From: Enchytraeus crypticus
Taxonomy: Eukaryota; Annelida; Clitellata; Enchytraeida; Enchytraeidae
Length of the DNA: 64,000 nucleotides
Reading direction: 5' to 3'
NCBI GenBank assembly: GCA_905160935.1
Contig: CAJHZI010000271.1
Coordinates: 921,501 to 985,500, forward strand
The notes under the pieces were generated by a model. That model was given only the letters and a program-made list of their open reading frames with translations, was not told the origin of the DNA and did no database searches. Below, in pieces: positions 10,901 to 50,115 of the stretch (position 1 is the first letter of the stretch; the number at the start of each line of letters is the position of its first letter). Both the position numbers and the translations under genes were made by a program.

Positions 10901-13900
10901 GAAGAGCCAACAACCAAATTTTACAAGACTAACAAAAGTAGGATCCCCATACTAAAACGATGGGTTAAGTAGTGTATATCTAGAAGCAGGCTCAGGAACT
11001 ACAGTGCTTTGAAATATCAATTGACACCAAAATATAGTTCAGATGAAAATTAATTAAACTCTCTAAGACTTTGAAAAAGACAAAACTGCTGCACTCATTT
11101 CAACTTTAAACTTCTCTAACTTTCCAGGTCTTTCCATCCTATAAAGACTCTGTACACACCCCATCATTTTGACATCCACACTTGTATCTCGCTAAGCACA
11201 CACTAACCGACAAGTGCAATTAATGATTGACGGGTTAAAGAATCAAATTAAACATACCTATGGTATGTTTAAAGCGGTCCTTGCAAATACTCCGTGGTGA
11301 GTAGTTAAAAAGAACCGCTTTTTACAGTACAATGAAACATCAACATTCAACTCACTGTAAACAGTGAAGAAGCAATAACGCGTAAGTCACTTCCAGGCTT
11401 TAAACAGTTAAAGAACAATAACAGTAGCAATGCAAAGCTCACTTCTAGACTTAAAAAAGTTAAGGAACAACAACAACAACGATCAACTCACTTCTAACCT
11501 TTAAAAAGTTAAGAAACAAGAACAACAATGCTAGACTCACTTTTAGACTTTAAAAGTTAAGAAACAACACCGACACGCAACTCACTTCTAGACTTAAAAA
11601 AGCTAAGAAACAACAACGCGCAACTCACTTCTTGCCTTTAAAAAGTTAAGAAACAACAACAACAACAACTCACTTCTAGACTTTGAAAGTTAACAAACAA
11701 CAACAACAACTCACTTCTAGAAGTTAAGAAACAATAACAACAACTCGTAACTCACTTCTAGACTTGCCAGTCCTGACGACCTTCAGAGCCTCCGCTTCAC
11801 TCACTGCTCTCACCTTCGGCAGCGGAACGTCCCACTTGCCGGCCTTCTCCTTGCGCTTCTGCTTGATGGTGTTGGACAGGACCTTGGCGCGATTCTGCTC
11901 CTCTCTGTCCAGCATGTACTTGGGCAGCGGTCCCTCCGGTCCTCCATCAACCTTCTGCTTCGTCTTCCTCTCCTCGTGCATCTTGATTCTAGAAACCAAC
12001 AGACAATCAAATCAGTTAGTCTTTCTATTCATGAATATGACTTGAGTTTCTTCAAAAAGTAAAAATATTAAAAGCTGGTAAAGCTAAGGTTAACGTCAGT
12101 TTCCTCACTCGAAAGCGATGTCAGTGACGGGCAAGCCCAGGATTTGAACCTCGCATCTACTGATCCGCGGTCGAGTATCTTACCGACTTCGCCACTGGCT
12201 CCAGCCAAAGAAGGTGATGAAGAAGAGGGCATCAAGAATGCGACCTAATATTCAATTATTAGCTAATAAGCATAGTATTAACTATGTTTAGCTAATAAGC
12301 ATAGTATTAACTATGTTTATTAGCTATGTTTATTAGTAGATAACATGTCCAACAACATATCATAAGCTGCAAAGCTGTAAAGCTGATGTTAGCGTCAGTT
12401 TCATCTCTCGAAAGCGCTACCAGCGACGGTTGAGTCCAGGATTTGATCCCACACACACTGATCCACGGTTGGATATCTTATTGATATCGCCATTGGCTCC
12501 AGCCAGTGCATAAGGTTCAGGGTAGGTAGATACAAAAGATGAGTCAAAGTAATGCTAAATATTCGTTCAATATTGCAATCAAAACAAGAGATGTTAAAGT
12601 TACAAAGTAGCATATTAATTTTTAAATTTACAGTAGCATACGTCATTCACAATGAGGTATATAATCATTGATCACTATATTTATCTTGGAATGAAGTTTC
12701 TGCTTAATTAATATCAGACTTGTCGATACTTAGTCTACCAGACTGGATTACCAATTGTAAGTATCTACACTAGATATAGAAGATAATAAATCCATGTATG
12801 TAACAGCTATTTCATCAAGCTACGTAGTAGTTTAATATTAAAATATTACATAAATGTACATTTTATTGCATGCATTTAGCAGAAATAATATCTAACATTA
12901 ATAATGTTTATTATAGTAATAGAAGATTATATAGTATAGTTCATACTTCAGCCGACATTTGCTGGCTACATGTATGGTATTGCTGCACAGAGCTCATGCT
13001 GTTTTGTTTACTGTAGCCACTTTCATATTGGTGTTTATCTAATTACAGATATTCATGTATGCTTCTGTGACTGTAAAATTTATGCCGAGAGATACACAAA
13101 TGAACCTTGTGTGTGCTTGACAGAAGTGTTATACACTTTATTTTACTAAATAATTGTGAATGAAGAAAAATTTCAAAAACTTACGTCTTTTTCATCTGAA
13201 TCTTTTCATTGTGACGCTTCTTGTTCTCAATCTTGGCCCTACAAGAACATTAATGTAATAAAAAATCCCAATAGCTGAATTTAATCTCTATTATCGTATA
13301 AATTATTCATAATGATATTTGAAAGATTTGCCTTCTGCATAGCTTAGGTACATCACAGCTTTCTACCACACAATTATAGACAAATTATAATTTTTAATTT
13401 TAAGTGCAGAAACAATCAGACACACAGAATCACAACTTTGGCACTCTTTATATTGCAATAAACATTTGCGACTGAGAAGAGAACAAGAATAGATCGAAGT
13501 TAATTTATGTCATAATAGAAAAATATATAAAACAATAATAATATATAATACAATAACTCATAATTTTCTGTTAATAAATCATTAACAGAAATAAACAGAA
13601 ACTATAACATACTACACTGTGTGTTTTTATAACTGATATCCCAAATTGTTTTAACAATAAAGTCGTAAGAAGTTGACCGATGTTCTTGAAATTCACAGTA
13701 CTTGACCAGCAGCCAATTCTACCAAACATGCAGAAATTTCGTTTGAATATCTTTATTAACGTGAAAGTTATAGTTTTGTGAATAGGAGTGGGGTCAGATA
13801 AGAAATTTCCAGTACAGAATTACGGGCATGTTACATGCAGCGTAAAATTATCTCTATAAAAATAATAGCGAACACGTCACAAAATTTCAGCTAATGCTAT

Positions 13901-16212
13901 TTTGAAGAGCAATCACTTCTTTGCAAAGTGACGTAAAATACGTGCTGATATGTTCTTAATTGACAAAGTTATTGAACTTTTAATGTATGTATTGCACGAC
14001 TGGCTATATCAGCTATCACCTGCCGCGGCATCCTCTAGCACCACAGATAAAATGATTTCGTGTTTATTCTCTTCATGCAATGCATGCATAAAAAGTTCAA
14101 TAACTTTGTCAATTAAAAACATATCAGCACGTCTTTTACGTCATTTTGCAAAGAAATGATTGCTCTTCAAAATAACATTAGCAGAAATTTTATATTGCGT
14201 GTTAGCTGGTATTTTTATAGAGATAATCTATGCTAAATGTAACACTCCCGTAATCCTGTATTGGAAATTTCTTATCTGACCCCACTCCTATTCGCGAAAC
14301 TATGTTTCACGTTTTTAAAGATATTCAAACGAAATTTCTCTACCTTTTGTAGAATTGGCTGTTGGTCATGTGCTGTAAATTTCAAGAACAACGGTCAACT
14401 TCTTACGACTTTATTGTTAAAACAATTTGGGGTATCAGTTACAAAAAACACAGTGTACATTGGTGTAAATATAATAAATAAATGCCTCTAAAATTAAATA
14501 CATTCAATAAAATCTTATTTACTTTCATTTACTGTCTCTAAATGGACATATAAAACTTTCACTAGATATAAATTTGTGAAATCACGTCAGTTTTGATAAC
14601 TTACGTGCTTCTTACTAGAACTATCAGTTTAAAGCCACCACACAACATCTACACAATAGTCACAGATACATACTTGAGTCCTCGCAGTTTCTTTGCTTTT
14701 CTGGATGATTCGTGAGCCATACGACTTTCCTTCTTGCGCCTAAAATTATAAGTTATCACAATAAATTCAAGAATCAAAGACAAATAAATGCCAATTGTAT
14801 ACAAAATATATGCTCCCAGCTTCAGGAATGACTAGGGTATGAAACATGATCTCCTGCTTAAGAGTCAACACTTTTTCATCTCATGCTTTCTCAAATCCTG
14901 CATAATTCCTTTTGGTGTATCGGATTGTAGTAATGTATAAACGTTTCAAAGTTAAAAAGAAGAAACAGGCGTTAAACCTTTATTATTAACGAGATCGTCA
15001 TTGAATGACGAAATAGACACTAAACTTTCGCTATTGTTGTTATTAGAAAAACTAAAGTATACTGTGACTCAGATCATCCAACTGGAAACAAATGATGTAA
15101 AAAGCATTTTATTTTGAGTGCCTAACTATCTACTATAGCTTACTAACTTACTAAACCTCATTGAGATTTATTTAGAGCATTACACAAATCAATGAAATTA
15201 CAATAATTAAATTCTAATTATTATTATTTATATTATTATTTATTAATAATAATTAAACTTCGTTATAATAAATTATATTATAATAAAATGATAGTAGCAT
15301 ACTTTTTTTCTTCATAATCGAAGCGTCTTCCATAACGCTTCTTGTGAAGTTCCATATGCTCATTCTGCGGCTAAAAACAGCAAACATATATACCACATTA
15401 CTATATATCACAATTATAATTATCATCCGAATATCCTTATGTCTGTAAATTTTTCAGAAGCCCGTCTTAGAACTATTTCTAGAACCACATACTCTTACAA
15501 GGAATGTTACATGAACATGTACAAGTATTGGTATAACGTATTAAATATGTAAACGCATTCATGTAATATAAATTCTGTATTCCTACATAATAATATATTC
15601 AGAACAAGGGAAGCTACTTCCAGAGCCATATATTTTCCTCGCTAAAGGCTAAAACTAAAAGTTTAACCTTTTGTGAAGGGATTAACTTATTGATATATGG
15701 AGTGTTCTTGACAGAACTTGAAAACAGGCTATAAGAACATGTAGCAGGGAGTTACACTAATCAAGTTTAGAATAGAGATGGGAATCGAACCGAACTTTCA
15801 TTTTCAACGAACCGAACCAAACTCTCAAATTGTCAACTGCTGACCGAACCCGAACCGAACTTTCATTTTCAACGAACCGAACCGAACTCAGGAAATTCAT
15901 AAAATTCCCATCTCTAGTTTAGAATGGACAAGCGCATTAGCTATTACGGTGGCAGAATTGATATCAAGAGACTTACGACTTTGACGTAATTGACGGATAT
16001 GGAAAAAATAACGACAGACTGCTGCAGTATGTGTTTTAAAGTTTAGATTCTTAAGATAAACACGGATGCTAAAATTTCATTTTATATTATATTTTTTAGA
16101 TTAACATAAAAATCTTTCGAAATTTACGAAAGGTCCATATTATTTCCATTACATCAAAATGACAATGAAATACGGAAGATAAAATCACCCGTCACTTCTA
16201 TACACATACCAT
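7915..16212 (-). CDS. NSA2: NSA2, 60S ribosome biogenesis factor (9 exons, complete)
   Basis: NSA2 (TINP1) binds pre-60S particles in the nucleolus and is needed for 27S pre-rRNA processing. Exons on the minus strand are 16212-16210 (ATG only), 15370-15303, 14739-14674, 13238-13185, 11988-11756, 10724-10630, 9311-9171, 8726-8675 and 7982-7915. The joins are in phase and give 259 codons plus TAA; human NSA2 has 260 residues. Diagnostic blocks, in order, are [94 protein letters not shown] and the C-terminus [22 protein letters not shown]. The first half is a basic helical region and the second half is the S8e-like beta domain. The ATG is split off by an intron directly after the start codon (ATG|GTATGT). 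The gene is convergent with the gene at 2449-6658. Confidence 0.97.
8395..8645 (-). mobile_element. LINE ORF2 C-terminal fragment (CR1/L2-like)
   Basis: Minus-strand translation, with stops, gives [17 protein letters not shown] then NS(L/F)E and, a little later, F-KQA. This is the usual C-terminal 'R....FSFR..R.WN.LP..VV.A.S...FK..LD' block of CR1/L2-type ORF2 proteins. The copy is degenerate and lies in NSA2 intron 8 (between exons 8 and 9). Confidence 0.6.
9315..9560 (+). mobile_element. SINE family A copy flanked by a ~36-bp direct repeat
   Basis: The tRNA-like head 'gagccagtggcgatggcggt' and the box B-like 'gtgttcaaatcgtg' mark the SINE at about 9367-9520. 'agcagagtatcaatcaatca' and about 15 following bases occur on both sides, at about 9315-9352 and 9523-9560. 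This looks like a long target-site duplication. The insertion lies in NSA2 intron 6, just upstream (in transcript sense) of the exon 7 acceptor. Confidence 0.75.
11340..11765. repeat. junction-derived minisatellite at the NSA2 exon 5 donor
   Basis: About eight diverged units of roughly 45-60 bp each carry 'ctcacttctagactt' followed by an A-rich part and (CAA)n. In the sense of NSA2 this is AAGTCTAGAA|GTGAG, the last bases of exon 5 plus its donor. The authentic donor at 11756/11755 is the first unit in transcript order; the others lie downstream in intron 5. Reading through the true donor meets an in-frame TAA after about 12 codons. Confidence 0.85.
12071..12204 (-). mobile_element. SINE family A copy
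   Basis: The minus strand reads 'tggagccagtggcgaagtcg' at the 5' end, then 'ctcgaccgcggatcagtaga', then a box B-like 'ggttcaaatcctggg', and ends in 'aaagctggta'-type sequence. It is the tRNA-related family with at least eight other copies in this window. It lies in NSA2 intron 4, close to exon 5. Confidence 0.8.
12255..12330. repeat. short tandem duplication
   Basis: 'gctaataagcatagtattaa' plus 'ctatgttta' occurs twice in a row, followed by a partial third copy. Confidence 0.85.
12370..12505 (-). mobile_element. SINE family A copy
   Basis: A diverged second copy 165 bp from the previous one, in the same orientation. It ends in 'ggctccagcca' on the plus strand and keeps the 'ggatttgatcccac' box B region. 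Confidence 0.75.
13615..14455. mobile_element. 841-bp near-palindromic transposon flanked by TA (mariner/Tc1-like MITE)
   Basis: The ends are CACTGTGTGTTTTTATAACT and the complement of a near copy (CACTGTGTTTTTTGTAACTG). Both are flanked by TA (13613-13614 and 14456-14457). The inverted arms are about 370-390 bp each and a centre of roughly 90 bp separates them. No transposase is encoded. TA target and CAC...GTG ends suit the Tc1/mariner superfamily, but family assignment is inferred from the ends only. It lies in NSA2 intron 3 and would fold into a very long hairpin in the pre-mRNA. Confidence 0.88.
15773..15916. mobile_element. 144-bp hAT MITE with perfect ends
   Basis: A perfect 13-bp terminal inverted repeat TAGAGATGGGAAT / ATTCCCATCTCTA is flanked by a perfect 8-bp duplication GTTTAGAA (15765-15772 and 15917-15924). 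Inside, a subterminal block 'cgaactttcattttcaacga' is repeated. End sequence and 8-bp duplication are those of hAT elements. The identical duplications suggest a fairly recent insertion, in NSA2 intron 1. Confidence 0.95.
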
Positions 16213-17082
16213 GTTTGTGTGTTGTATTCGATGAGACGAGACAAGAGTTTAACAAATTTGTTTTCTGTAGAATTCAACGTAAGACTAAAAGCACATTTAA
16301 TGCTTTTGTTTACGTTGTGAAAAGACCGGAAACACTAAAACCGTTACCAACTACAACTAATTTGGACAATCTAACCCAACAACAACAGTAAAATCAGATT
16401 TGCTGTAGTTATGCACATGAACATGTAAACTATTTGTAGCGAAATTGGACTTTCGCTTTGATATGCCTGTTGTATTAAGCTCGAACCAGTATAAATTAGT
16501 GCGCTTCCGTAAACACTAATATTAAACGTAGCACCAGTCAAGGATTTTTCCAAAGTATAAAAATAGACATAAATATCAATATTAGAGATATAGTTGAGCT
16601 AGGGATCAAAGGAAAACTCTAATTCGTTAGCGGTTCTTGTAAAATTAGATAATTGGTTGGAAATACTATAATATACGTAGTTGGCCTATATTAAAGTAGA
16701 AAGACAATAGGCGGGTTTTGGTCCCGATATTGGATGACCAAGGATTCCAAGAGTTGCAGGAGAGTTTTGTCTTGCTATTGTTGAATTATGACTTCAAGAG
16801 TTGCAGGCGGGTTTTGACTCGCTATTAAGGTGAACAGAAACACATTAAATACAAAATAGGTTTAGATAGGAAACAAATAGGGAAGACTACTATCACTTAC
16901 TTATTTTTAGCTTTTACAAGTCTGGTCTCAGACCACGCTCCACACTCATTAACAATAGGGTTAGGTTAGACTTGTATTATTTGTTTGACAAATTCCAATC
17001 ACCATATTCAATTTCCAATTATTACTAATCAACTAATCAAATAAATTCTACGCCTTTAAACTTTACAACAAACTAAGGGGAG
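16213..17082. other. spacer between divergent transcription units
   Basis: This stretch separates the NSA2 start codon (minus strand) from the ORF at 17083 (plus strand). It should include the NSA2 promoter and 5' UTR. No TATA box or CpG cluster stands out. A short direct repeat around 16700-16830 ('agagttgcagg' and 'gggttttg') is present. Confidence 0.4.
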
Positions 17083-17589
17083 ATGGCCGACCAAAAAACT
17101 GATAGTAGGCCAGTGTCCCAAGCCTCCTCGACGTCGAACGCGGGACTTATCCCCGATTCGGGCCGTGACGACCTGGCACAAGACCTGAATTCCCACGAAC
17201 TCACCAATAGGGCAGAGGCCATAGACCTAGCACAGGCGGGAGACAAAAACATTCCCACCTTTAGTCGTGACGATCCCGGCGCAGTAGTAGAAAGCGGACA
17301 TTCACAATTGGCCAAGTTTCTAGGCCTTTCAATAACCAGGAACACACAAGTCACTGACCTAAATATCCAAAGGCCATACTACCACAACAGCGCGCCGGAG
17401 GTCCCCATTAGCTCAGTGGGTGGATGGGGAGGCCCTAACCAACAAAAACATTTAATGTTGGAGGGAGCTGAGCAATACCGGCGTCCAAGACCAAGCTATG
17501 ACCCCAAAGATATGGGAAGTGGGCACGTACAAGCCGAGCGTTTCGCGACACTATTCGATGTTCGATTTTCATTTCTACTCCGTTGCTAA
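17083..17589 (+). CDS. unidentified 168-codon ORF
   Basis: The ATG at 17083 has a favourable context (ggggagATGG) and the frame is open to a stop at 17589. Base composition is distinctly richer in G+C than the flanks. The product is hydrophilic, rich in Ser, Asp, Gln and Pro, with no signal peptide or membrane segment. A Gly/Trp motif (VGGWGG) near residue 112 and a basic RRPRP stretch near 130 are visible. No family was recognised. It could be a single-exon gene, a first exon, or the gag-like part of an eroded retroelement or virus-derived insertion. Composition and length argue against a chance frame. Confidence 0.5.
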   Translation: MADQKTDSRPVSQASSTSNAGLIPDSGRDDLAQDLNSHELTNRAEAIDLAQAGDKNIPTFSRDDPGAVVESGHSQLAKFLGLSITRNTQVTDLNIQRPYYHNSAPEVPISSVGGWGGPNQQKHLMLEGAEQYRRPRPSYDPKDMGSGHVQAERFATLFDVRFSFLLRC

Positions 17590-17796
17590 CTTGCTATTAC
17601 ATTATTAAATGCTAATCCCTCAGCCATCTTCTTTGTTTAAGTTGACGATCGCCAAAAAATTTAGACCTTCAATGAAGGTTGAGGAATATCCTTCTGGAAT
17701 GAATATGCAAATACATATAGCTATCGAAGGCTATGATAGTAGATGCATAGAGCAGACTATATATCAAGCAAATTTATTCGACTGACTGACATTGAG

Positions 17797-17940
17797 ATCA
17801 AGACATCTTCTTCTTACCTTTAATCTCAGATTAACTAGGCTCGGGTTACGAATAGACTTTCTCCATTCCTCGCTGTCCCATACCATATCATCAGTCAATC
17901 TCATGTAATCTCCTCCATTCTTTATGGAAGACTTTGCAGC
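17797..17940 (-). mobile_element. RTE-type LINE 3' end (reverse-transcriptase C-terminus)
   Basis: The minus strand reads LTDDMVWDSEEWRKSIRNPS then LVNLRLK, a C-terminal block shared with the copies at 20228 and 52605. It ends in an AAGAAG/ATG-type tail. It is 5' truncated. Confidence 0.75.
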
Positions 17941-17964
17941 AATTTCTGGAGCATAGGTGCTCAT

Positions 17965-19305
17965 TAGAGACCTGCGCGGGGTTGAAATTTTAACCCAACC
18001 CCGCCCCGCGGGGTGAGGCATGATTCCAACCCCACCCCATCCAGAAAAAATTGTTTCCGTCCCCACCCCGCCCCTCAAGCATTGATTCCAACCTCGCCCC
18101 GCACCCGTGAAACTTATTCCTGACCCCGCTCCACCCCGCAATGAAAAATGTTAGCATGTACATGTATTTCAATATATTACACTTTATTACTATACGTGTA
18201 AACACATATAGTAAATATATATATTTATTATAAATGCAAGCCTCCATCTCGGATAGATATAGTCCCTACAATACATGAATATATAATGTATACATTTATT
18301 CCGCTATGGGTCTTTATCGTCGCAATGTAAAGTAAGCGGGCTTACTTTCAGACAAATAACGCCTAACCTCTTTCCGAACTAATGACTTATATCTTCAATA
18401 ATAAGGTATAAATTTACATTAGGCCCTATTCTATGCTTACATTGTACATCAATTGCTATTCTGATTGCTTGAACTACTTGCGCGCACTAATTATAGCCCT
18501 AACGATTTAAGCGTTAGGGCCTATTAGCTAAACAACAAATAATATGCTAATGTTCTTTTAATATAAGAGAGTGCATATTTTTGACCGACATAACTGTTTA
18601 AATTAACTGCAAAGTCAGACTGAATGCAGATTGACGCGGAAACGCATACAACTACATGTACATCCCTGGCCTCTTTGTCTTGTACCTCGCTACAGTCCGT
18701 TGAACAGAGGCTGAATCCAGACTAATTACACAACGTTAAGATAAGAGATTCAACTAAATGACAGGATTGACGGTTAGGGTAGGGATTAACTGACATCAGA
18801 TTGCATTGACATCTGTTTTTATTTAAATACTTGTTGGACATTTGACCGGATTATTTACACTGTATTATTTTTCTTACATCTTTCATCATGAAGTAGTGTT
18901 AGCATGTTTCCTTATCAGGACACAATCTGCTGTCTCTGACTAAGTGCTGCTGTGTCGTTGATCTGCGAACTCACCGATTTTCTTCGGTATTTCTTCTTTA
19001 ACGCACTTATCTTCTCTAATCTCATTAGTTATCTTTGCTCGCTGACGCTCATTTCTCATTAGAACAATGTATATGCCACACAGCCATTTTGTGTAGTTGT
19101 TAGTGCCAGCGAAGGGTGAATGAGAGGAGGAGCGGAGAGGAAGGGAGGTTGAAAGTATGTCAATTTACAGTATTGAAGTAAAAAAATAAATTATTGCTTC
19201 ACAAATTAACCCCGCGGGGCCCCGCAAAACCAGCCCCCTACCCCGCGGGGCCCCCGCTCGAATTCTTTCCAATCCCCGCGGGTGGGGGCCCCGTACTGTT
19301 CTCTA
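17965..19305. mobile_element. 1.34-kb hAT-like element with GC-rich ends
   Basis: Both ends begin TAGAGA (left TAGAGACC, right TAGAGAAC in complement). They are flanked by a perfect 8-bp duplication GTGCTCAT (17957-17964 and 19306-19313). Subterminal regions (17975-18140 and 19205-19295) are packed with CCCCGC/GCGGGG motifs in an otherwise AT-rich element, a feature of some hAT families where such motifs bind transposase. No transposase frame was seen, so it is non-autonomous. The ORFs within the GC-rich ends are low-complexity by-products. Confidence 0.88.
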
Positions 19306-19313
19306 GTGCTCAT

Positions 19314-20227
19314 CAAACGAATGCCCTTTCTAACATTGGTTTGGAATTTAGTGCTTTGTCACCTTTTACGACATGTGCACTTTAGTAACTCGGATAAAAC
19401 ACGGCGGTACACAACAGATCAGATATTTTACATACACTCTTTATTCTAGGCTTTTTTGCCTAATCTCGTATATACTGTACTAGCCAGAAAATACAAGAAT
19501 TCGATATATGAATATCGGTTAAATATCGATATACTATAGATTGTATCGTTATATGAATATCGGTTATACAAACAGATATACTATAGATTGAATCGCTTCT
19601 GCCGGTTCTTCTTACGTCTCAGCGTCTGATAGTATTTCAAATATTCCATGCGTGTATTATATGTAACTATAAGTAGTTAACGACGAGTAACCACAAAAAA
19701 GTCTGCACTGTAGATAAGAATGAAATTAAGTTGACTATTGCCAATTAATATAAGCATGTAAAAATTTTACTATCTGGTATTGATAATCTGAGATTACAAT
19801 TTCACCGATTACAAGTTTACTGCACTTAAATGTCACAATGGCTATGTCCCCAGTGTCCGTCATTAAAAATTTCATTAAGTTTCCCAACACACTAAAATAT
19901 TTAGCTAAATATAGAAGAATACATCAGGGAAAATACGGCTTTTAATTCACTAAAAATTCTGCTGTGAAACTAACAAAACTGCTTTACTGATGGAAACTTT
20001 AAATGGAATACAATAAAAATAGGAGTCTGAGGCAGTTAGACGGCAGAATAAGTTTTGGTAATGACTGGTAATTTAAAATGAATAAACAAAATCTCAGATA
20101 CAGGAGTTGCATGATGAACCCTCTAGACGTGGTGTACTGCAAATAATATTTAATAATTGAAAAGAAATTTAGATTGGAACATTAAACACTAAATATTTAG
20201 CGCTTCACGAGGTTAAGCCACCTGCGA
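19314..20227. other. AT-rich DNA with no gene seen
   Basis: No coding frame was recognised. The motif 'gaatatcggttaaat' or 'gaatatcggttatac' with 'atatactatagattg' occurs twice near 19505-19590, a short tandem duplication. Confidence 0.4.
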
Positions 20228-20545
20228 GGGTTAGAAATTCATCATCATCATCATCATCATCATCAATATTACCTTAAATCCCAGTTTAACTTGGGTCGGG
20301 ACACGAACAGACATTTCCCAATCCTCTCTATCCCACACCATATCATCCGTCAATCCTCTATTTTTCATGTCCTTCTTAATCACCGCATCCTACGTCAATT
20401 GTGGTCTACCTCTATCAAGCTTAACATCCAGCTCTTCCCTCCAAACTCTCTTTACCACATTCTCATCTGCCTTGCTCATAATATGCCCATACCATCTCAA
20501 TCCCGACTGAGCCATGAGGACCCAGAAAGTCAAAATCCATATGAA
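20228..20545 (-). mobile_element. RTE-type LINE 3' end with (ATG)n tail
   Basis: The minus strand encodes LRWYGHIMSKADENVVKRVW then REELDVKLDRGRPQLT, and after a stop DMKNRGLTDDMVWDRED. This is the C-terminal part of an RTE-like reverse transcriptase. The 3' end is a run of GAT/ATG repeats (plus strand (CAT)n at 20238-20263), so the poly(A) is replaced by a simple repeat. It is 5' truncated. Confidence 0.85.
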
Positions 20546-21023
20546 TTTTAAATAGGACCATATAGCTTTTGTAACCTCAATTCTTACGAAAATAGAAACC
20601 ATAGAGAACAAAGAAAGTTAAATCAAAACAAAACACATTAAGAAAATTTCGAATCGAATAACAAATCCTTGCAAACAAAACATGTAACTCTAATGGGTTT
20701 GCACTCAGCAGCATAGGCAGGACGTGGGCTTTCAAAATTTTGGTGTACAACGATGTAAATAGGAGAGGATAGGGTGCAGGGGTTAGAATCTCCGCCTCAG
20801 AATTAATTAATTAAGTGGACTGTGAGCAAATTTCAGGTCAGTCAGCAACTAATGGATAACACCTAGGGCCCCTGAGTGGATTATCATGAATCCGAGCTAG
20901 CCGCTAGGTGGCGCTATAAACATCAGAGATGTGACTAATTATAGAAATGAAGAAACGAAGCAGCTTCAAGGACCAGTCATCCGCCATGACACAGCTGCTG
21001 TAATGGTATATTTGTGAAAATTC

Positions 21024-24689: not shown

Positions 24690-26244
24690 AAGAGAGAGAG
24701 AATGATTTTGTAGTGGTTTTTACAGGCTAGTATGTTTGCCTCATACCTAACATTCTGAGTGGGGTTCCACCGCTCTGAAGGGAGTTCTCCACTCTGTGGA
24801 TCATCTATGGGTGGGTGAAGTATAGATATACACACGTGACCACTCTGTCCAACAGCAACAACAACAGATCATGACAACATAGAGAACTCTGTGGATCATC
24901 TATGGGTGGGTGAAGTATAGATATACACGCGTGATCACTCTGTCAAACTACAACAACAACAGATCATGACAACATAGAGCACTCTGTGGATCATCTATGG
25001 GTGGGTGAAGTATAGATATACACACGTGACCACTCTGTCAACAACAACAGCAACAACAGATCATGACAACATAGAGAACTCTGTGGATCATCTATGGGTG
25101 GGTGAAGTATAGATATACACACGTGACCACTCTGTACAACAACAACAACAGTTCATGACAACATAGAGCACTATGTGGATCATCTATGGATGGATGAAGT
25201 ATAGATATACAAACATGACCACTCTGTCCAACAACAACAACAATAGTTTATGACAACATACAGCACTCTGTGGATCAAGTACAAGATCATCTTCTAGTTT
25301 ATCATCAGCACACTGTTGATCATCAGCACACTGTTGATCATCAACACCCTGTTGATCATCAGCACACTCTTGATTATCAGCACACTGTTGATCAACAACA
25401 CACTGTTGATCAACAGTACATTGTTGAGCATCACCACACTGTTGATCATCAGCACACTCTTGATCATCAGCACACTGTTGATCATCAACACACTGTTGAT
25501 CATCAACACACTGTTGATCATCAACACACTCTTGATCATCAGCACACTGCTGATCATCAACACACTGTTGATCATCAGCACACTCTTGATTATCAGCACA
25601 CTGTTGATCATCAACACACTCTTGATCATCAACACACTCTTGATCATCAGCACACTCTTGATGATCAGATCTTAATCAACAGATAAAAATGGCAATAGAA
25701 ATTTTATATGAAATTAGAACAGATAAAACAAAACAACTATAATTTCATGTACAGTAATATATTTGCCAGCTTGATAAGGGCTTTATCAGTGCATTAATTT
25801 ATGTCTAATGATTTACTAATTAACTAATAAAAATAGTATTTGCAACAAATTGATTAATGCAGAAATAGTGATTTAGGTCTAGATAGATAACGATTTGCTA
25901 ATTAATTACAAAAAGTAGTATTTGCTAGAAACTATTCAAACCTCATATAAATTTGAATGCCACATTTTAGTAATAATCATTTAATAAATTAGAAATATTT
26001 AAATCATATGAATAAACATATACAATATTCAAACCTCATATACATTGGGATGCCACATTTTTGTGAGGAATCTAACAGATGGAGGAGCATATGGATAGTC
26101 CTTTGGAAATTTCATTTGAGCCTGGAATAAAAATATAAATAATTATACAATATTTGAAAAAGACACAAATTGCATAGTAGAAAAGGATCCCATACACTTT
26201 GCCTCTGAGGTTTAAAAGAAAGGAAGCTAGTAAATAGTTAATAA

Positions 26245-40330: not shown

Positions 40331-40844
40331 TTTTAGGCCTAAATATAAATAGTATTGAAACTCTTGCAATTTTTGCCGGATGAATTAGCATGTCCTCTTT
40401 CACGTTTACGGAATTTTAGATGCGCACCGTTTAAGCATCTTTAAGTTTTACTCACCAACTATACGGTGGTTCAATGCTCAATAAATTAGAACAAATATTG
40501 TCATGGATGATCTTTGCTCAATTTAGAGTTGTTGTTGTGTACGGTTTACGCACGGTGTGCAAAGTTTACGCACGGTTTGGGGCACCTGCGGTTGCTATAG
40601 CAACAAATTGCTAAATTATGTCAACAACATTAATTTGAGATTTAATAACTTACATAAAATATTTACTGAATATGTATTTTTATTTACAATGCATAGAGAA
40701 AGCAAATTATTATGTATATACCTATTGCGGTACAGACTATCTTAATGTTCAATATTGCAATTTGGTTAGAATTTTTCGGAAAATTATTTAAGGTTGCTTA
40801 TTCTATTTTTTAAATTTCCAGATTTACTGAGCTTTTAGCGAACT

Positions 40845-41112
40845 CTCTCTTATTGCACTGCCTACTGGCAGGTCCATGGTACATAACGCTTCCACTCTTC
40901 TCTGTCTTCCGCCTTCCTCTTCATTTCCACATATGAGTGGGTCTTTAAATCATCTAACATGCCTAATCTTGGCCTGCCCCTGCCTCTCTTTCCTACTTCT
41001 TCATATTTCTTAATACATTTATCAACTGTCTATCTGTGCCAACTCTCTCCAGGACTTCCTTCATATATGGCCACAATAGTTCTTTAGCGAACTATTGTGG
41101 CCATATATGAAG
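40845..41112 (-). mobile_element. LINE C-terminal fragment ending in a perfect fold-back
   Basis: The minus strand carries GRGRPRLGMLDDLKTH-like sequence and KRKAEDREEW-type motifs, with stops. The same block occurs at 50150-50370. At the inner end, 41059-41082 and 41089-41112 are perfect 24-bp inverted copies with a 6-base loop (tttagc). Confidence 0.75.
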
Positions 41113-41411
41113 TAAAATTATGCATGACACTTAATGGTCATTCAGTAATCACATCAATGAAAATCAATAAGCAAATCAATGAAAAGACATCTGTGCAATT
41201 TAACTAACAAGAAATATGTTACAAATGTAACATAACAGTACTGGATCAAAAAGCATCAAACGCTGGTTTAAGAAAAACTATATACGCAATAAGTAAACTT
41301 TAATAAATTTACTTTATATGTTACTAAAAGTATTCAATTTCTTCCTTAATAATATATTTGTCCAATATTTCATTTCAGTTGTTTTGAAGAACTTATATAG
41401 AGCTAGTGCTA

Positions 41412-44400
41412 ATGGCATCTGGTCTACCTGTTGATCCTAAATCGAATCCGAAAGGGGTAAAGAAATTGTGTGAATTATGTCAGAAGCCAGCCTTCATACA
41501 ATGTGCCCACTGTCGTGTTACATACTATTGGTGAGTCAATGCTCTAGCTGTTTCTGCTTGTTGTAGAGAAGATAAAGTTTTGAAACCTGATGTCGAAAGT
41601 ATTCTACATTTATAGACTCAGTGATGTTATAGAAACATGTTGCATCAGAATATAAAATTAGATTTTTTACAAATTAATTGTAACTTATATGCATGTATTT
41701 GTAATTGTTTATTTATTGATTTAGTAAACCATGGAAGGGTCTTGCCACTTCGTACAGTTTACATCCATGAAAACAAAAATACAAACATTTACAACCAGTA
41801 ATCATAAGTGCACTATGATCAAATTAGAGTACGAATAAGAAAGATCTAAAGCAATCTTTAAAAGTTTCTTAAGAGTCTTTGTAGCATAATGATTCTTGTC
41901 TTACTGAAATTTGCACGGCAGACTTCACTACATATCATTTTGTAAATCAGCCATTGCATATGGCTGATATTTCCTTAGGACAGAATAGCAACACTTGCTT
42001 GAAAATTGGCTGAGCTTGCAGCAGTTATTAAAATAATTTAGTATAATTGTTAAGGGTGGTTATTATAGCACATCATATTGGAGTATTGATTGAACTTTAA
42101 CTTTCAGCCGCTATTTTTTATCTCGTAGTGACGTATCACATCAGAATGTTGACTGGGTTGGTATCCATGAGAAGATTTGTCAGCTTCTTATTCCTCTGAG
42201 GACTCCAATGCCATTCTTTCACTCAGAGTCTGAACGAATACATCGCAAACAACAACAGCTCATGAGGCAGGTTGTAGTGTGTTGTTTTAAAGTCAGTAGC
42301 TTGTTGGCAAGGTGTCTGACTGCAGATCAGTAGGTTTAGGGTTCAATGCCAGTAAATCCAATGCACTGAACTCAAATCCTCGTTACGGACATGCACTCAA
42401 GACACAGAATAGATGTTATACTTGGCTTTAGCCATCAGCTCTTCATTCTTGAGTACTCTCATTTCAGTATGCTGTTGGTGTTGTAATATCAAGAGTAGGT
42501 CTGCATTTCTATAACCACCGGTGCTAGTATGTAATGAATACCAGCAGATGGGTTGATATTGTTGCTGTGCAATCTGTCAAGATAAAATATCTTCCTAATG
42601 AAAGATGCACTGCAACAAATGTTTAACTTAAGCAATAAACTATTAGTAAAAAAACCAAACATATTTACTGGAGCGTGATACACATTATATGTCCTCTCAG
42701 TCTTAACAAGCTGGTAAAGCTAAGGTTAATGTCAGTTTCCTCACTAGAGAGGGATGTCAGTGATGGGCAAGCCCAGGATTTGAACCCCGCACCTACTGAT
42801 GTGCGATCGAGTATCTTACTGGAGCCAGTGGAAAAGCAAACATCTTTGGTAGTTTGGTTATGCAGTAGTTCGTTCTGAGTATCTGCTTTTGTCTTGATAT
42901 TTACCCATCAAAGTGCTTTCAAAGCGATAAAGTGGTTCTGACTATTTAATGATCAATTTTTGATTTGATGGATAAGTTATATCTCGCCGAATTAAAAATT
43001 AGAAGGACTGATTTACTAGTGGCTCTTATACCTATTATATATTTACGAACAGCTCTCCTATCTATGATAGATTTGTTAATAGCTTTCGTGCCTTTAACTA
43101 ATTCCCATATAGTCTTTGTATGCATAGATTTGAAAATTTATTAGCTCATTGATTCAGTTATTGATTAAAATTTATTTACTGATTGATTTAAGTTATTGAT
43201 TAAAATTTATTTACTGATTGATTTAAGTTATTGATTAAAATTTATTTACTCATTGATTTAAGTTATTGATTAAAATTTACATGCTCATTGATTTAAGTTA
43301 TTGATTAGTTTCACATTATTGATTGACTTTGTAATGCAGAAGCACATAATAGAACTGACAAGTAGAACGAGTCAGAGACTGTTGTATGAGGGTTTGTATG
43401 AAGAAGCGATACCTGCCGCAATGCAGTACCTACGCTTCACTGCTGACCTGCACGGCTTGTCCAGCATAGAACTGGTGAATTCTTATCTCATGATGGCTGA
43501 AGCCAGCATTGGTACGATTCACAATCTCTCTCTCATACATCATCATCATCCTCTCCTGAATCCCAGTTTAACCAGGGTCAGGATACGAATCTCTCTATCA
43601 TACATTATCTTTAAAAAGAGGAGCATATGAAGTGTGAAGTCACATAGCTTAGGCTCTGTGACCTCACATAGCTTAGGCTTTGTGACCTCACATAGCTTAG
43701 GCTTTGTGACCTCACATAGCTTAGGCTGTATGACTTAACATGCTTCGACTCTAGGCCTAGTGACCTCACATAGCTTAGGCTGTGAGGTCACTTTTGTGGT
43801 GTGATGTAAGCTACAAAACAATAATGATTGAGTGTGTTATTTAGTGAAAGTTATGATCATTAATTGTTTAATTCATTAGGATAGCATGGTGATGCATCAC
43901 TATTTTGCGAAGATTTAAAAGTTCTAATACATTTTCAGTAATATGTACAGGTAGATTAACGGTAGTTCTCTATTCTAACTGTGGGCCTATTTATCTTCCA
44001 TCTTTGTCTTTATAATGTCAGAAAATAATGTCTCTATAACCATTGATTGTCTCTGTTTTAATGTCTCAGTTTTCCTTTTTTCAACTTTTTGTATATTTAT
44101 AATAATTTTTGGTTTTCTCTTTTGATGTCTTGACTTTTTTCTACTTTTTACCCAATATTTATTGTAATAGACGGTCCCCATTTTACATGTCATATCCATA
44201 TCGTATGAGTAGAACTACGATCATTATTAACATCGTATCATGAATGGAAACTATTGATGTTTCTTTTTGGTTTTAATTAGGTCTTAAAAAGTTGAAACAG
44301 GCTGAAGAATACATTGCTCAGGCGGAATGGACAATTATGCAGACACCGGATTGTCCTAACTCTATTAGACACAAGCTGAGTCGTAAAGCCGGACTACTTT

Positions 44401-47400
44401 ATACAGCTAAAGGAGAATTCGATTCTGCTCTCTTTGAGTTAGCCAATGATGTAAGTGTAACTGTTTGAGTTAGCCAATGATGTAAGTGTAACCGTTTGAA
44501 TTAGCCAATATTGTAAGTATAGCTGTTTGATTTAACCAATGATGTAAGTGTAACTGTTTGAGTTAGCCAATGATGTAAGACTTACATTTTTGGTTAACCC
44601 AAACAGTTACACTTACCTTGTATGTATAACTGTTTGAGTTAACCAATGATGTAAGTGTAACTATTTTAGGTAACCTATGATGTTATCTAATGGCTAGCAT
44701 ATGGTTAAATCGTATGTGTAGTTTGATATTATAATGCTGTACAGATTTACGCTGCATCAGAAGAGTACGGGCCCTACGCTGTGGAGACCTCAGGAGGCTA
44801 CTTCCTAATGGCTAATGTATTTCATCGACAAGGACAACACGCTACAGCTCTCTCACTTTATGATCAGGTAATAACTTTTATCTGATAACATTTACGTCTG
44901 AACCCGAAAGTTACCAAGAAGGAAACTTAAAGAATTCATCATCATCATCTGTTTCTTGTGTTCTGAAAAGAACATAGGGCGAAAACATTCCTCCATTCTT
45001 TTCTGTCTTTTGCAACTCTCACAGCATCTTCCCATGAAATGTTCAAAGTTTTCAAATCTTTGTTGATTGTGTTGAACCAAGTACTTCTAGGTCTTCCTCT
45101 TTTCCTTTTTCCTTTTTACTTAAAGAATTAGACTTAAACAACTCTAAGAACTACAAAATGGATTATATCTTGTGCGGAGAGGGAATCAAAGTAGAATCAA
45201 AAAGAATGTGAAGATGTGGGAACAATTTGTCAGAAGCTGCCAGATTCAGGAGTTTCTGGTTTCTATGAATTACAAAAATCAGAGACACGGATGCTTTTAT
45301 CAGAGGGCTGGACTTTGTCTAATTTGTATGTAGTAGCAATTCAATATGATTGATTATAATTATTAGTCACTCCTTCAACAAACAGTATAATATTATATTA
45401 ATATGTAATATTAGTAAATTGTTATTATAATAATTGTAAAGATTTAACGGCCGTTTCCTCATACAAGACGTTATTGTATTGTAGTATATTATTTTTTAAT
45501 TTTAGTTAATTTTGCATTTGATTCTTAACTAAGATATAAATTAAGTTTAAATACCGATAGCATTCCTGCACGAAGAAATATTTTACATTTCATTCTTAAG
45601 AGCTAGACCAGATAGACTGCTTACAACCTTACGAGTAATATGTTACAATCTTTGAATTCAATGCATGCCAAATCATACACATAGACACAATTATGATAAA
45701 GAAGTAAGTAACAAAAGAAGCTTTTTCATTATTTTTAATTATTATCAGAGCAAATCAAAGGAATATAATGGAATTATTTCAGGTGGTGGATATTTGGCGG
45801 AGCTATCTCTCAGTGTTTGTTCAATGGAAGCTGGAAAGTCCCAAGGTCGTATCTATATTAGAGGACATGTCGGCGGATTCGAGGGGAATCATGAAAAATG
45901 AATTGGGTATAATTTCGTTTTCTCTTTACGGTTGAATACTTGTGCACAATTTAATTTATTTTAACGTCATAAGACTCAGCAACTACCAGTTAGTGGAGTT
46001 AACTAAAATTCTAAAGATAATTCTACTATTTCAGATAGCACTTGAGACTATTATTGGCTAAATCTGCTTGTCTCATCTGTACAATGATCTATTTAATAAA
46101 CATCAAGCTGCTTACACTAAGCATCGTTCAACTGAAATGGTGCTTCTATCTGTGTGCATTTCTATTGTTAATGCCATGTGCACGCAACGCTTAACTGGAT
46201 TATGTATGCTTGATCTTTCGGCCGCTTTTGATACCATTGATCACAATATTCTTCTGGAACGTCTTTCTTCATGGTTTGATGTTCGTGGAATTGTTCTTGA
46301 TTGATTTTCCTCGGATCTGACGGATCGTTCTTTTAGTGTGAAAGTGATGGAGTACATCTCTTCACCTTCTCACTTAAAGTATGGTGTGCCTCAAGGCTCC
46401 GTTCTTGGTCCTATCCTCTTTAATCTCTATACAACACCCTTAAGCACTCTAATCTCTTCTCATTCTCTTGATCATGAACTATATGCTGATGACACTCAAA
46501 TGTACACTTGTTTCACCCCTAACTCCTCTTCTACTGCTGAAACCCTCCTGCAACAAAGTTTTCAGTCTATATCCTCTTGGATGTCTGCTAATTTCTTGGC
46601 ACTTAATCCATCTAAGACTGAATTCTTGTTGGTCAGGACACCTCAACAGCTTCTGAAGCTGAATGGGAAAACTCTTTCGTTATCTTCGGGTATTAAAATA
46701 TTACCTGTTTCTTCTGTGAGAAATTTCGGTGTTATCCTTGATAAACACCTAACCTTCCACAAACATATAACTAAAACTTCACAAGCATGTTTCTTCCATA
46801 TCCGTGATCTTCGTCGAATACGTTCATATTTGTCACGTGAGACAGCTGCTACAATTGGTGCTGCTCTTGTGCAATCGAAGTTGGACTACTGCAATTCCCT
46901 GTTTTTAAATCTCCCTGGCTGTGAGATTAATCGGTTGCAGTTTGTTCAGAATTCTCTTGCGCAAGCAATTTTTTGTAGTTTGTAGTTTCACATGTTACAC
47001 ATGTTACGCCTATTTTGAAGTCTTTGCATTGGCTAAAGATTAAAGAGCGTATCATTTACAAAACAGCTTCGTTAACCTATAAGTCCATCACCATCCCTGG
47101 ACAAACTTGTATGTCTCACTTGATTAAAGTGATGCAGCCTGCTGTTACTCGGTTTTCTAATTTAATTACTATTGTGAGACTTAGCTTACCTTCATGCTCT
47201 AAGCTATCTAATCGTTCTTTCCAGCATGCTGCACCTCAGATCTGGAATTCTCTTCCATCCAATCTTCGGAAATCTTCATTTGAATCACATCAGCCTTTGC
47301 TTTCCTATGAGCATTTCCATAAGCAGTTGAAGACCTATCTTTTCCATCTCTCTTTTCCATCCAGTGTCCATGAGCAGCTACCTGCGCCTAAACCACCTTT

Positions 47401-49884
47401 TCTTTAACTCCCTTTACTTTGGACTGAATTTCTGGATTTTGGAATTTGCACCGTTTTTGGACCTTCTTTTTTGCTCGCAGGCTCGATTTTGTCTCAATAG
47501 TGCTCGATGTTGTCATTGATGACTGTAGCACTCTAATTGTTGTTATTGTTATTATTACGGGATAAATACTGTATACAATACATGTATGACTCAGTTGTTT
47601 CTGCATTTTAGAACAATTTCATATTTCAGACTTGCAGACGTTCCACTGCTACGCATTGTAGACTTTTGTCTATTATTATGACTTTTGTCATTTTAGACTT
47701 TTGTCAATTATTAAGACTCTTGTGATTGTAGACTTGTGTCTATTATTATGACTTTTGTGATTGTAGACTTTTGTCTATTGTTATGACTTTTGTGATTGTA
47801 GACTTTTGTCTATTATTATAACTTTTGTCATTGTAGACCTTTTTAACTTAGCCAATTGAGTCTTCATATGTCTACCTGGGCAACTGTGGCCCCTTTCATA
47901 GAGAGGCGTTTTATAAATACACCAGTAATTGATTGATCAATTGATTGATTTTTCGATTGGTTGATTGGTTGATTGATTGATGGCTGGATTTTTTGATTCA
48001 TTGACTGCCTGATTGATTTATCAATCGGATAGTTTTCGGTCCACTCACTCAGAACTATCGCGATTATCACCAACGGCTATTATCACGGTTGTTATCACGG
48101 TTGTTATCACGGTTATAATCACGGTTGTTATCAAGGTTGTTATCAAGGTTGTTATCATGGTTGTTATCAAGGTTGTTATCATGGTTGTTATCAAGGTTGT
48201 TATCACGGTTATAATCACGGTAGTTATCGTGGTTGTTATCAAGGTTGTTATCATGGTTGTTATCAAGGTTGTTATCACGGTTGTTATCACGGTTGTTATC
48301 ACGGTTGTTATCACGGTTATAATCACGGTTGTTATTATGGTTGTTATCAAGGTTGTTATCACGGTTGTTATCATGGTTGTTTTCAAGGTTGTTATCATGG
48401 TTGTTATCAAGGTTGTTATCAAGGTTGTTATCATGGTTGTTATCATGGTTGTTATCAAGGTTGTTATCATGGTTATAATCACGGTTGTTATCATGGTTGT
48501 TATCAAGGTTGTTATCACGGTTGTTATCATGGTTGTTGTCACAGTTGTACTGCACTTTGATCTGCTATGCAGACGAGACGCTGCAGGCTGAGGCTGCGGT
48601 GGTGCTGAACGCTGTCTACGCTGTTAAAGAGAAGGGCCAGACAGCTGCGGGGGTGGCTAAGGTTGCCTATACACTGGCGATGCTCTATTATCTGCTGGAC
48701 AACACTGATAAGGTTTGTAGAAGTGATAACCCGAGATTTGAGATGGGTTCTGCATTTTAGACTAATATGAAAAGTGTGTTCTGTGGTAGTGTAATCAACC
48801 TTTGAATAGATCTACCAAGAACTGAACGTGTTGCAAGAGTTTACTAATGAAGATACTGACGAAGACAACTGAAAACGATGTAGAAAATATTACTCTTCTA
48901 CTAAAGGCTGCAGAAGTGTGGTTTATGGCTTTATGTGTAACCTGTGGCAAGTTATTTTGTCTTATGCGACTAAGAACCTTTCATAGAGCAAATGATGAGA
49001 GATTAACATGGATGAGAGATAGAGCTACTACCAGAAAGTATTTATTGCTAAGTACTATTGTGAACATTAAATTTAGTAAAATAAATGGAATTGAATCATG
49101 TTGGACTTCATATTTTCAACACATGCTTTTGTCTTTGCCCTTATTGCTTCCAGACCACACTAGAATAAACCAACTGTAAACTGCACGTGTCGTATGAGGC
49201 ACCTAAAGAGAACTGAAGACAGGAGGGCATAGGCTAAACATCTCAGAAACCTAAGACTTCTGTGCTAAAAGCTGTGATATGGTTAAATCATAGAATTATT
49301 GATGGTATCATCTTGTTGGTCCACAGAGTTCTCGTATTTAGCGTGAGAGCAGACTCGATTAGAAATGTGTGTCATGGATTTTGCAATTTTGTAGAAGACT
49401 AGAGAGATCATAATCTTTAACTTGGCCCAAAATAGTATGACTTCGATATGGTTTCCGAGAGGTTCTTATACTATTCAGTGAGCTTATTACACACGTATTA
49501 TTTAAATTACTATATGTGTATTTTCTGCAGCAAGATGTGCAATAATGTTTTTATTTTCATGTCTAATTACAGTCTAAAGAGATGGGATAAGATGTGTTAT
49601 AATGTTTTATTTGTATGTCTAACAGGCGAAAGAGATGGAACAAGATGTGTTATAATGTTTTATTTGTATGTCTAACATGCTAAATTGATGGGACAAGATG
49701 TGTTATAATGTTTTATTTGTATGTCTAAAGAGTTGGAACAAGATGTGTTATAATGCTTTATTTGTGTGTCTAACAGGCTAAAGAGATGGGACGAAGAGCT
49801 GTTGGTGCAAGTGAAGAACTGCACGACGAGCAATTCTCACGTTCCGTTCTACATCTGCTTAAAATCTGCGAAAATGTAGCCTAG
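41412..49884 (+). CDS. ZMYND12: ZMYND12, MYND zinc-finger ciliary protein (8 exons, complete)
   Basis: ZMYND12 is a MYND-finger, TPR-like axonemal protein needed for sperm flagella. Exons are 41412-41530, 42129-42270, 43340-43511, 44281-44450, 44745-44867, 45783-45906, 48573-48712 and 49777-49884. All joins are in phase and encode 365 residues, the same length as the human protein. The MYND finger occupies about residues 20-57: CELC...CAHCRVTYYCDVSH then DWVGIHEKIC. QLLIPLRTPMPF, then EAIPAAMQYLRF..LHGLSS, YLMMAEAS, AEEYIAQAEWT, AGLLYTAKGEF, LANDIYAAS, ETSGGYFLMANVF and VVDIWRSYL all match family blocks. The MYND Cys is split by intron 1 (TG|T). Exon 6 is read in the frame VVDIWRSYL; another open frame overlaps it but does not join. 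Intron 6 is about 2.7 kb and holds a LINE. Confidence 0.96.
42706..42826 (-). mobile_element. SINE family A copy
   Basis: The plus strand reads 'agctggtaaagctaaggtta' ... 'gcccaggatttgaaccccgc' ... 'cgatcgagtatcttac', complement of family A. It lies in ZMYND12 intron 2. Confidence 0.8.
43140..43315. repeat. 37-bp minisatellite, about 5 copies
   Basis: Unit 'ttattgattaaaatttattt' plus 'actgattgatttaag'. It ends about 25 bases before ZMYND12 exon 3. Confidence 0.92.
43536..43595 (-). mobile_element. RTE-type LINE tail fragment
   Basis: Complement of 'cgtatcctgaccctggtta' + 'aactgggattcaggagagg' + GATGATG, the common RTE 3' tail. It starts 25 bases after ZMYND12 exon 3. Confidence 0.65.
43630..43795. 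repeat. 26-bp minisatellite, about 6 copies
   Basis: Unit 'gtgacctcacatagcttagg' + 'ctttgt' in ZMYND12 intron 3. Confidence 0.93.
44430..44668. repeat. junction-derived minisatellite at the ZMYND12 exon 4 donor
   Basis: The unit of about 30-31 bp is GAGTTAGCCAATGAT|GTAAGTG plus 'taactgttt': the last five codons of exon 4 (ELAND) and its donor. The first unit is the real junction (44450/44451). Four or five further copies follow in intron 4, then an inverted piece (about 44579-44622) and another direct copy. Reading past the true donor gives VSVTV then a stop. Confidence 0.93.
44925..45120 (-). mobile_element. LINE C-terminal fragment
   Basis: The minus strand reads KRKRGRPRSTWFNTINKDLK then TLNISWEDAVRVAKDRKEWR and NVFALC. 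This is the 'GRP...W...DL.......A..A.DR..WR' C-terminus of an RTE/CR1-type LINE. It lies in ZMYND12 intron 5, antisense. Confidence 0.8.
46060..47550 (+). mobile_element. L2/CR1-like LINE, 5' truncated, with reverse-transcriptase
   Basis: The RT frame begins HQAAYTKHRSTE and continues LCMLDLSAAFDTIDHNILLE; the palm continues with YGVPQGSVLGPILFNLYTTP and the catalytic HELYADDTQMY (YADD at 46482-46493). KTEFLLV and FGVILDKHLTFHKHI follow. An in-frame stop at 46302-46304 breaks it, replacing the usual Trp after LLD-like sequence, and a frameshift follows 46985. The C-terminal ORF resumes at 47015 and ends in HEQLPAPKPPFL. The 3' tail contains 'ggaatttgcaccgttttt' and 'gtgctcgatgttgtcattga' and ends in (GTT/ATT)n. 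It is dead and sits in sense orientation in ZMYND12 intron 6. Confidence 0.93.
47640..47845. repeat. minisatellite, unit about 36 bp
   Basis: Repeats of 'gtagacttttgtctattatt' + 'atgacttttgt(g/c)att' in ZMYND12 intron 6. Confidence 0.88.
48077..48545. repeat. 12-bp minisatellite, about 39 units
   Basis: Unit GGTTGTTATCA(A/C/T) repeated with few deviations. It keeps long open frames on both strands (VVI, DNN, TTM repeats), all by-products of the period. It ends 27 bases before the acceptor of ZMYND12 exon 7. Confidence 0.96.
49555..49800. repeat. junction-derived minisatellite at the ZMYND12 exon 8 acceptor
   Basis: A unit of about 45-55 bp combines the end of intron 7 ('tttatttgtatgtctaacag') with the start of exon 8 ('gctaaagagatgggac'), then 'aagatgtgttataatg'. 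Copies with acceptor AG lie at 49572 (exon-like start 49573), 49625 (49626) and the real site 49776 (49777); two other copies have lost the AG. Use of the copy at 49626 would read AKEMEQDVL and stop, and that at 49573 SKEMG and stop. Confidence 0.92.
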
Positions 49885-50115
49885 CATGTAGCTAATATGT
49901 CGTAGCTAATATATAGCCTGACATTTAGCCTAGCTTGTAGCCAATATGTCGTAGCCGGACACGTGGCTAATATATAGCCTGACAAATTAAACCTAGGGCG
50001 TAGCTAATATGTAGTAGGTTAGTAGCCCGACATGTAGCTAATATATGGCATGACATTTAGCCTAGCGCGTAGCTAATATGTAGCCTAACGTGATCCAGAC
50101 AAGTAGCCTGACATA
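49864..50115. repeat. degenerate tandem repeats around the ZMYND12 stop codon
   Basis: Copies of 'gtagcctagcatgtagctaa' and 'tatgtcgtagctaatatata' run from the end of exon 8 into the 3' UTR. The first copy includes the last codons and the TAG stop. Confidence 0.8.

Follow-up and report, generated by a model that had tools for sequence, protein, structure and literature searches.

Minisatellites that contain splice junctions in Enchytraeus crypticus, and a possible hotspot of tandem duplication at exon edges

Are splice junctions captured by minisatellites by chance, or is the DNA at a junction itself a preferred source of tandem repeats? The question is raised by a stretch of 64,000 nucleotides from the annelid Enchytraeus crypticus (the window; G000:C189:921501-985500, source assembly of 524 Mb in 802 contigs). 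The first-pass annotation of this window had claimed that four arrays in three genes have as repeat unit the edge of an exon together with the adjoining edge of the intron. Two causes had been offered, local tandem duplication that targets exon edges, and selection that removes arrays growing into exons.

Junction-spanning arrays in the window

Gene models with GT/AG introns and open frames were built from the sequence for NSA2 and UBE2R on the minus strand and for ZMYND12 and a fourth gene on the plus strand; for a further minus-strand gene most of the model was built. The first exon of NSA2 was not found when the gene was modelled from the window sequence, and the stop codon of UBE2R lies 2 nt past the end of the model, with no junction affected. 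Pfam matches are Ribosomal_S8e for NSA2, UQ_con for UBE2R and TPR for ZMYND12. The zf-MYND match of ZMYND12 has a score of 19.4 bits, below the Pfam cut-off of 22.7 bits, and the fourth gene has no Pfam match. The arrays and the exons that they touch are the following.

11387-11762, minus strand: minisatellite at the NSA2 exon 5 donor, unit of about 49 bp (TRF, gene model, sequence display)
11756-11988, minus strand: NSA2 exon 5, authentic donor at the low-coordinate edge (spliced translation, Pfam Ribosomal_S8e)
24747-24844, minus strand: UBE2R exon 3 (gene model, UQ_con)
24790-25277, minus strand: minisatellite at the UBE2R exon 3 acceptor, 95-bp unit, 5.1 copies (TRF, sequence display)
43133-43307, plus strand: 35-bp array that ends 32 nt short of the ZMYND12 exon 3 acceptor and only abuts it (TRF)
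44281-44450, plus strand: ZMYND12 exon 4 (gene model)
44433-44683, plus strand: minisatellite at the ZMYND12 exon 4 donor, 31-bp unit (TRF rows 44433-44579 and 44619-44683)
48080-48548, plus strand: 12-bp array that ends 24 nt short of the ZMYND12 exon 7 acceptor and only abuts it (TRF)
49531-49797, plus strand: minisatellite at the ZMYND12 exon 8 acceptor, 53-bp unit (TRF, sequence display)
49777-49884, plus strand: coding part of ZMYND12 exon 8, stop codon TAG at 49882-49884 (gene model)
49877-50107, plus strand: array over the ZMYND12 stop codon and 3'UTR, beginning 5 nt before the stop (TRF)

TRF confirms the places of the four arrays, and the junction lies inside the unit in all of them, as had been claimed. 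The units of 31, 49, 53 and 95 bp are arranged head to tail and belong to the minisatellite class (range about 10-100 bp). The NSA2 unit consists of the exon end, the donor (at 11756) and (TTG)n; the array reaches 5-7 nt into the exon according to TRF, while about 10 nt of exon appear repeated by eye. The UBE2R unit combines 55 nt of exon sequence with 40 nt from the end of the intron, and its acceptor is at 24844. The array at ZMYND12 exon 4 has its main part at 44433-44579 and poorer copies to 44683, includes 18 nt of exon in the unit (donor at 44450) and holds one inverted copy near 44544-44616. In the array at exon 8 the unit includes 21 nt of exon, the acceptor is at 49777, and the AG has been lost in two of the four decoys. 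A fifth array, over the ZMYND12 stop codon, had been thought possibly similar; it spans no splice junction and is not a case.

Among the best candidates listed, no second copy of ZMYND12 exons 4-5 was found beyond the inverted copy within the array itself, and the only second copy of UBE2R exon 3 was a diverged paralogue. Inverted copies do not form a general signature, as they occur in only 5 of 116 arrays of period 25-150 and in 1 of the 30 junction-spanning arrays described below.

Other repeats are also present in the window. An 18-bp array of 20.7 copies (25297-25668, TRF) adjoins the UBE2R acceptor array in the same intron. A 27-bp minisatellite of about 8 copies (57011-57237) lies in frame within a large coding exon of a minus-strand gene and encodes a repeat of about nine residues. 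Intron 6 of ZMYND12 contains, at about 46040-47430, what was judged by eye to be a reverse-transcriptase-like LINE fragment. The segments 1462-2240 and 13641-14440 have ends that look mutually inverted by eye and are perhaps MITE-like DNA transposons.

Frequency of spanning arrays and the choice of null

The comparison was extended to other genes of the same genome. The test loci were the best exon matches of TCP-1, proteasome and kinesin proteins, chosen by protein family and blind to repeats. Each of the 87 loci comprised the match and 1.5 kb on either side. Five intronless or retrocopy-like loci (L001, L019, L020, L058 and L059) were left out and 82 kept, and three exon-rich gene stretches (L088-L090) were added. 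With the window, the full set comprises 55 segments, 286,248 bases and 257 predicted junctions, 53 of them in the window. It thus represents three protein families and one window, and any genome-wide scale is extrapolated from these 257 junctions.

Junctions were predicted from the DNA sequence, near the ends of protein matches, by a splice-site matrix derived from the 26 donors and 27 acceptors of the window; predicted sites scoring less than 1 were not taken. Arrays were counted at a period of at least 12 and a score of at least 90, and were considered spanning when they covered at least 5 nt on each side of a junction. Hand re-annotation of the junctions of L018, L064 (acceptor) and L069 changes the number of spanning arrays from 30 to 29.

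The excess of arrays at junctions depends on the choice of null. In the seed null, for which we argue here, each array is collapsed to one unit and the units are placed at random, never wholly inside exons, in 1000 runs. We consider this null the right one because an array grows by copies laid down beside the junction; the junction pre-dates the array and can lie inside it only if the seed covered it. Under the seed null, 30 of the 144 arrays span a junction against 7.17 expected (maximum 18 in 1000 runs). For the window alone the count is 4/21 against 0.69, and 4 is the largest value, reached in one of 1000 simulations; at 10 nt or more per side it is 3/21 against 0.49, reached in 15 of 1000. 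The loci outside the window give 26/123 against 6.48 (maximum 15 in 1000 simulations), and a smaller first locus set had given 16/108 against 4.14. The segments with L088-L090 taken alone show no significant excess (3/18 against 1.58).

After re-annotation the fold climbs with the number of nucleotides required per side, from 4.0 (5 nt) through 4.7 (8), 4.9 (10) and 5.5 (15) to 6.0 (20). Changing the score cut-off (60-200) or the period cut-off (20-30) leaves the fold at 3.9-4.6. About 12% of the sampled junctions (30/257, roughly one in nine) carry a spanning array, with 18 of 132 acceptors and 12 of 125 donors affected. The TCP-1 donors are low in this respect, with 1 of 39 spanned, which counts against a hotspot.

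The first-pass annotation had proposed a comparison with shuffled positions, in which a lack of excess would refute the claim. The crudest shuffle gives this refuting outcome. When whole arrays are shuffled without restriction, so that they may swallow exons, the mean of 26.8 against 30 observed shows no excess, and 30 is reached in 137 of 500 runs. When the shuffled arrays are limited to one exon edge, entering by up to 90 nt, the mean drops to 14.4 and 30 is never reached in 500 runs; the seed null, as given above, has the lowest expectation. Recurrence within the intron is about equally frequent for 14-mers that cross a junction and for uncollapsed intronic 14-mers (donors 11/125 against 74/732, acceptors 25/132 against 109/780). 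This is expected because interior points are counted once per copy.

The unrestricted shuffle supports the view that there is no hotspot, duplications being uniform and junctions being captured in a minisatellite-rich genome by chance or through longer survival of arrays near exons. This is quite improbable. The shuffle in question lets arrays swallow exons, and both the shuffle limited to one exon edge and the seed null have lower means. In addition, under a survival bias the young arrays should show the weaker excess, and the opposite is observed: the fold is 6.3 for arrays of at least 95% identity (8/26 spanning against 1.26 expected), 4.5 at 85-94% and 3.7 at lower identity.

Composition, selection and the origin of the excess

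The position of the excess was followed by the coverage of seed units. In the first locus set this coverage is 9.2% over the last 20 nt of the exon, 12.45% over intron positions 0-20 nt and 10.7% at 20-40 nt, and then 1.3-1.4% at 100-400 nt and no more than 3.8% out to 900 nt. The excess therefore peaks within about 40 nt of the junction, and it is present at donors and acceptors and in arrays both below and above 2.6 copies. In the full set, seed units cover 10.5% of the bases no more than 30 nt from a junction and 2.0% of those in the intron interior (at least 150 nt away), a ratio of 5.3 (segment bootstrap 3.5-7.7). A preference for exon GC content can be rejected as the cause because the peak lies on the intron side.

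A second possibility is that T/G-rich, microsatellite-rich intron ends start minisatellites wherever such sequence is located. Microsatellite bases are indeed about twice as dense near junctions (4.0%) as far from them (2.1%); (TTG)n occurs in the NSA2 and UBE2R units and (GATT)n in some acceptor units. However, the near/interior ratio remains 5.2 after GC matching, and dinucleotide models leave ratios of 4.2 (logistic) and 4.1 (boosted), which rules out base composition alone. When units bearing microsatellite runs are removed, coverage is still 6.7-7.7% at intron positions 0-30 nt against 0.8-1.8% at 100-900 nt, and donors are enriched too. An origin in composition is thus unlikely.

The edges of SINE copies were used as a control for sharp sequence edges in general. 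None of 56 such edges is spanned, against 30 of the 257 junctions (Fisher P 0.004). The control element, assigned to its class by eye, has tRNA-like motifs and is found at 62045-62190, with 44 other matches in the window and the loci.

The seed excess is thus centred on junctions under the seed null and recurs in other genes, which agrees with the earlier proposal that tandem duplication acts locally on exon edges. The other proposed cause, selection removing arrays that grow into exons, cannot by itself give the excess, because the comparison is made with the intron interior. A different form of selection has to be considered, in which tandem copies of a splice site are kept as helpful, for example as spare sites or as decoy-triggered switches of transcript decay. 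The structure of the units and of the decoys bears on this.

It had also been noted that the authentic junction is always the terminal unit and that the copies extend only into non-coding sequence. The pattern holds, but it is a geometric necessity, since a copy must be contiguous with the remainder of the exon to be read as that exon, and it gives no evidence on cause. The unit statistics are based on 27 of the 30 spanning arrays; three with a negative intron part were excluded, and the unit length was set by hand for NSA2 (49) and the C597 donor (39). The units of 16 acceptor arrays include 15-53 nt of intron (SD 8.7), a spread tighter than random placement (P 0.0006 against uniform, in a post hoc test). 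Fifteen of these units have 22-53 nt of intron, and one has less than 20 nt where 5.3 would be expected. No comparable limit is seen in the 11 donor arrays, where the smallest intron part is 13 nt. The simplest reading is presumably a splicing filter, as splicing would shift to the upstream AG if an acceptor copy lacked a branch point of its own.

The GT or AG is retained in 122 of 130 decoy copies, so that the decoys are potential splice sites; a purging of decoys is ruled out by the same count. In the 15 arrays with at least three decoys (113 decoys), the GT/AG bases are off consensus in 8 of 226 cases, compared with 389 of 4943 for the other bases (P 0.043 when counted by copy and 0.069 by site). 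A decoy-only consensus was used here, as a comparison with the authentic copy overstates the conservation of GT/AG. Judged from these sequences, the decoys may be slightly conserved. Ten uses of decoys were modelled for the four arrays of the window (two donor read-throughs and eight acceptors at whole unit multiples), and every one meets an early in-frame stop. We infer from this modelling that the exon-proximal copy must normally be used in splicing.

The retention of GT or AG in most decoys, the lower deviation of GT/AG than of other decoy bases and the early stops would all agree with helpful copies maintained by selection. Against this, the excess is already found in two-copy arrays (below 2.6 copies, 8/35 spanning against 2.24 expected) and is strongest in near-identical ones. 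Junctions that bear arrays are not weaker sites than others; among the loci only, their mean scores are 6.56 (n=10) against 5.53 for donors and 6.17 (n=16) against 5.93 for acceptors. It is also important to note that about 12% of junctions is much for an adaptive trait. Selection of this kind is therefore an unlikely source of the excess. The enrichment of young and two-copy arrays, together with sites that are not weaker, favours a duplication hotspot over selection, and the excess may thus arise at mutation.

These observations allow us to propose, with a probability of roughly one half (0.52), that splice junctions are a hotspot of tandem duplication whose products are filtered by splicing. 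Around donors and acceptors alike, sequence up to about 40 nt into the exon or the intron would be several times likelier to seed a duplication than the intron interior, and the seed would then be multiplied by ordinary minisatellite expansion. A junction-spanning duplication would be tolerated, as the copy contiguous with the remaining exon could stay in use for splicing, while the other copies would turn into intron and stand as decoy splice sites. The survivors would be filtered by splicing, with acceptor units needing a branch point, a tract and an AG, and donor units as little as 13 nt of intron. Nascent RNA, the edge of a nucleosome and the T/G-rich intron ends are candidate sources of fragility at the junction.

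Paralogous genes give some view of array turnover. Among the best candidates listed, the UBE2R paralogue on contig C181 has one exon match and no array match. Two kinesin paralogues (C405:2586351-2586505 and C617:2797605-2798369) have related 41-bp units at the same acceptor, in 3.8 and 18.7 copies, respectively. The arrays seem to come, grow and shrink, because the C181 paralogue appears without the array and the copy numbers of the kinesin pair differ. Two other stretches of this pair align at about 80% identity and the best alignment across the arrays reaches about 90%, a hint that conversion, or else a partial duplication at a later time, has taken place.

A more general statement can be made only tentatively. 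Junctions may be DNA-level duplication hotspots in this lineage, where a trigger linked to splicing or to the exon edge (nascent RNA, a stalled polymerase or a nucleosome border) would copy exon edges genome-wide; intron ends would copy themselves and build tens of thousands of decoys, on which alternative splicing and changes of exons could draw. If the excess is genome-wide, minisatellite birth is focused where splicing happens and is not random along genes, and the link of splicing or exon chromatin to DNA duplication becomes directly testable. There would also be thousands of natural experiments in which the spliceosome has to select one copy out of several that are nearly identical. A practical warning for annotation is that programs for gene finding and read alignment will encounter series of almost perfect false splice sites.

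Known systems and a whole-genome motif check

Single cases of a related kind are known. A minisatellite of the human interferon-induced gene 6-16, which we take to be IFI6/G1P3, is said to have been described by Turri, Cuin and Porter in 1995 as containing several splice donors. The trait shared with the present arrays is a repeat unit that contains the authentic splice site. However, that case concerns donors of one human gene, while here many unrelated genes and also acceptors are involved, and the decoys are candidate sites only. De Grassi and Ciccarelli are reportedly the authors, in 2009, of a study of repeats at human exon-intron boundaries. According to passages of the article, internal tandem repeats at exon-intron boundaries change splicing in human genes located in segmental duplications (PMC2812944). 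These passages describe a similar minisatellite expansion, of about 30 bp x 4, at the boundaries; unlike here, they deal with recent paralogues in which novel introns were formed, and an excess at junctions is not tested in them. Direct repeats near intron splice sites exceed chance according to Rogers and Bendich 2025 (PMC11782384), where they measure 4-30 bp and are read as insertion marks, whereas the repeats described here are tandem arrays. Among the papers listed, the literature search found no account of a genome-wide class or of a genome-wide excess of junction-spanning minisatellites.

The multiplication of splice motifs is also a feature of intron gain by tandem duplication. Such intron gain is said to have been put forward by Rogers in 1989, and Zhuo et al. 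reportedly described human introns from tandem arrays. Passages of Lehmann et al. 2010 treat intron gain by the tandem duplication of proto-splice sites (PMC2891723). Intron gain of this type creates an intron from a duplication within an exon, and the two ends of the intron match; here the junction was present before it was copied, and the ends differ. The arrays could in principle lie in introns that arose when AG|GT exon segments were duplicated in tandem, or in copies of a mobile element that makes introns. Passages of two articles describe tandem duplication as a way in which introns are gained (PMC2891723; PMC2812944). However, in the four window introns the sequence around the donor does not resemble that around the acceptor, with scores of 8-12 that lie within the range of 200 shuffles each, so that the matching ends of such introns are absent. 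An introner-like element would leave related sequence in many introns; of 27 units compared across loci, all are unrelated save one pair from paralogous genes. Both forms of intron birth are very improbable here.

The duplication hotspot proposed above can be compared with simple motif counts over the whole genome. For the donor string CAGGTAAGT, 2678 sites give 111 pairs spaced by 16-46 nt, against 59 pairs among 3687 sites for the reversed string (ratio 2.6). The corresponding numbers for CAGGTATGT are 185 pairs among 3438 sites against 84 among 2662 (ratio 1.7). The motif pairs cluster in arrays (35 distinct by hand count among the rows listed), so that the P values are too small, and the reversed motif is a single control. 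The check is support, not proof.

The same whole-genome counts contain a separate observation. The textbook donor CAGGTAAGT is rarer than its own reverse (2678 against 3687), while CAGGTATGT outnumbers its reversed string (3438 against 2662). The donor consensus may be unusual, or strong decoys may be avoided.
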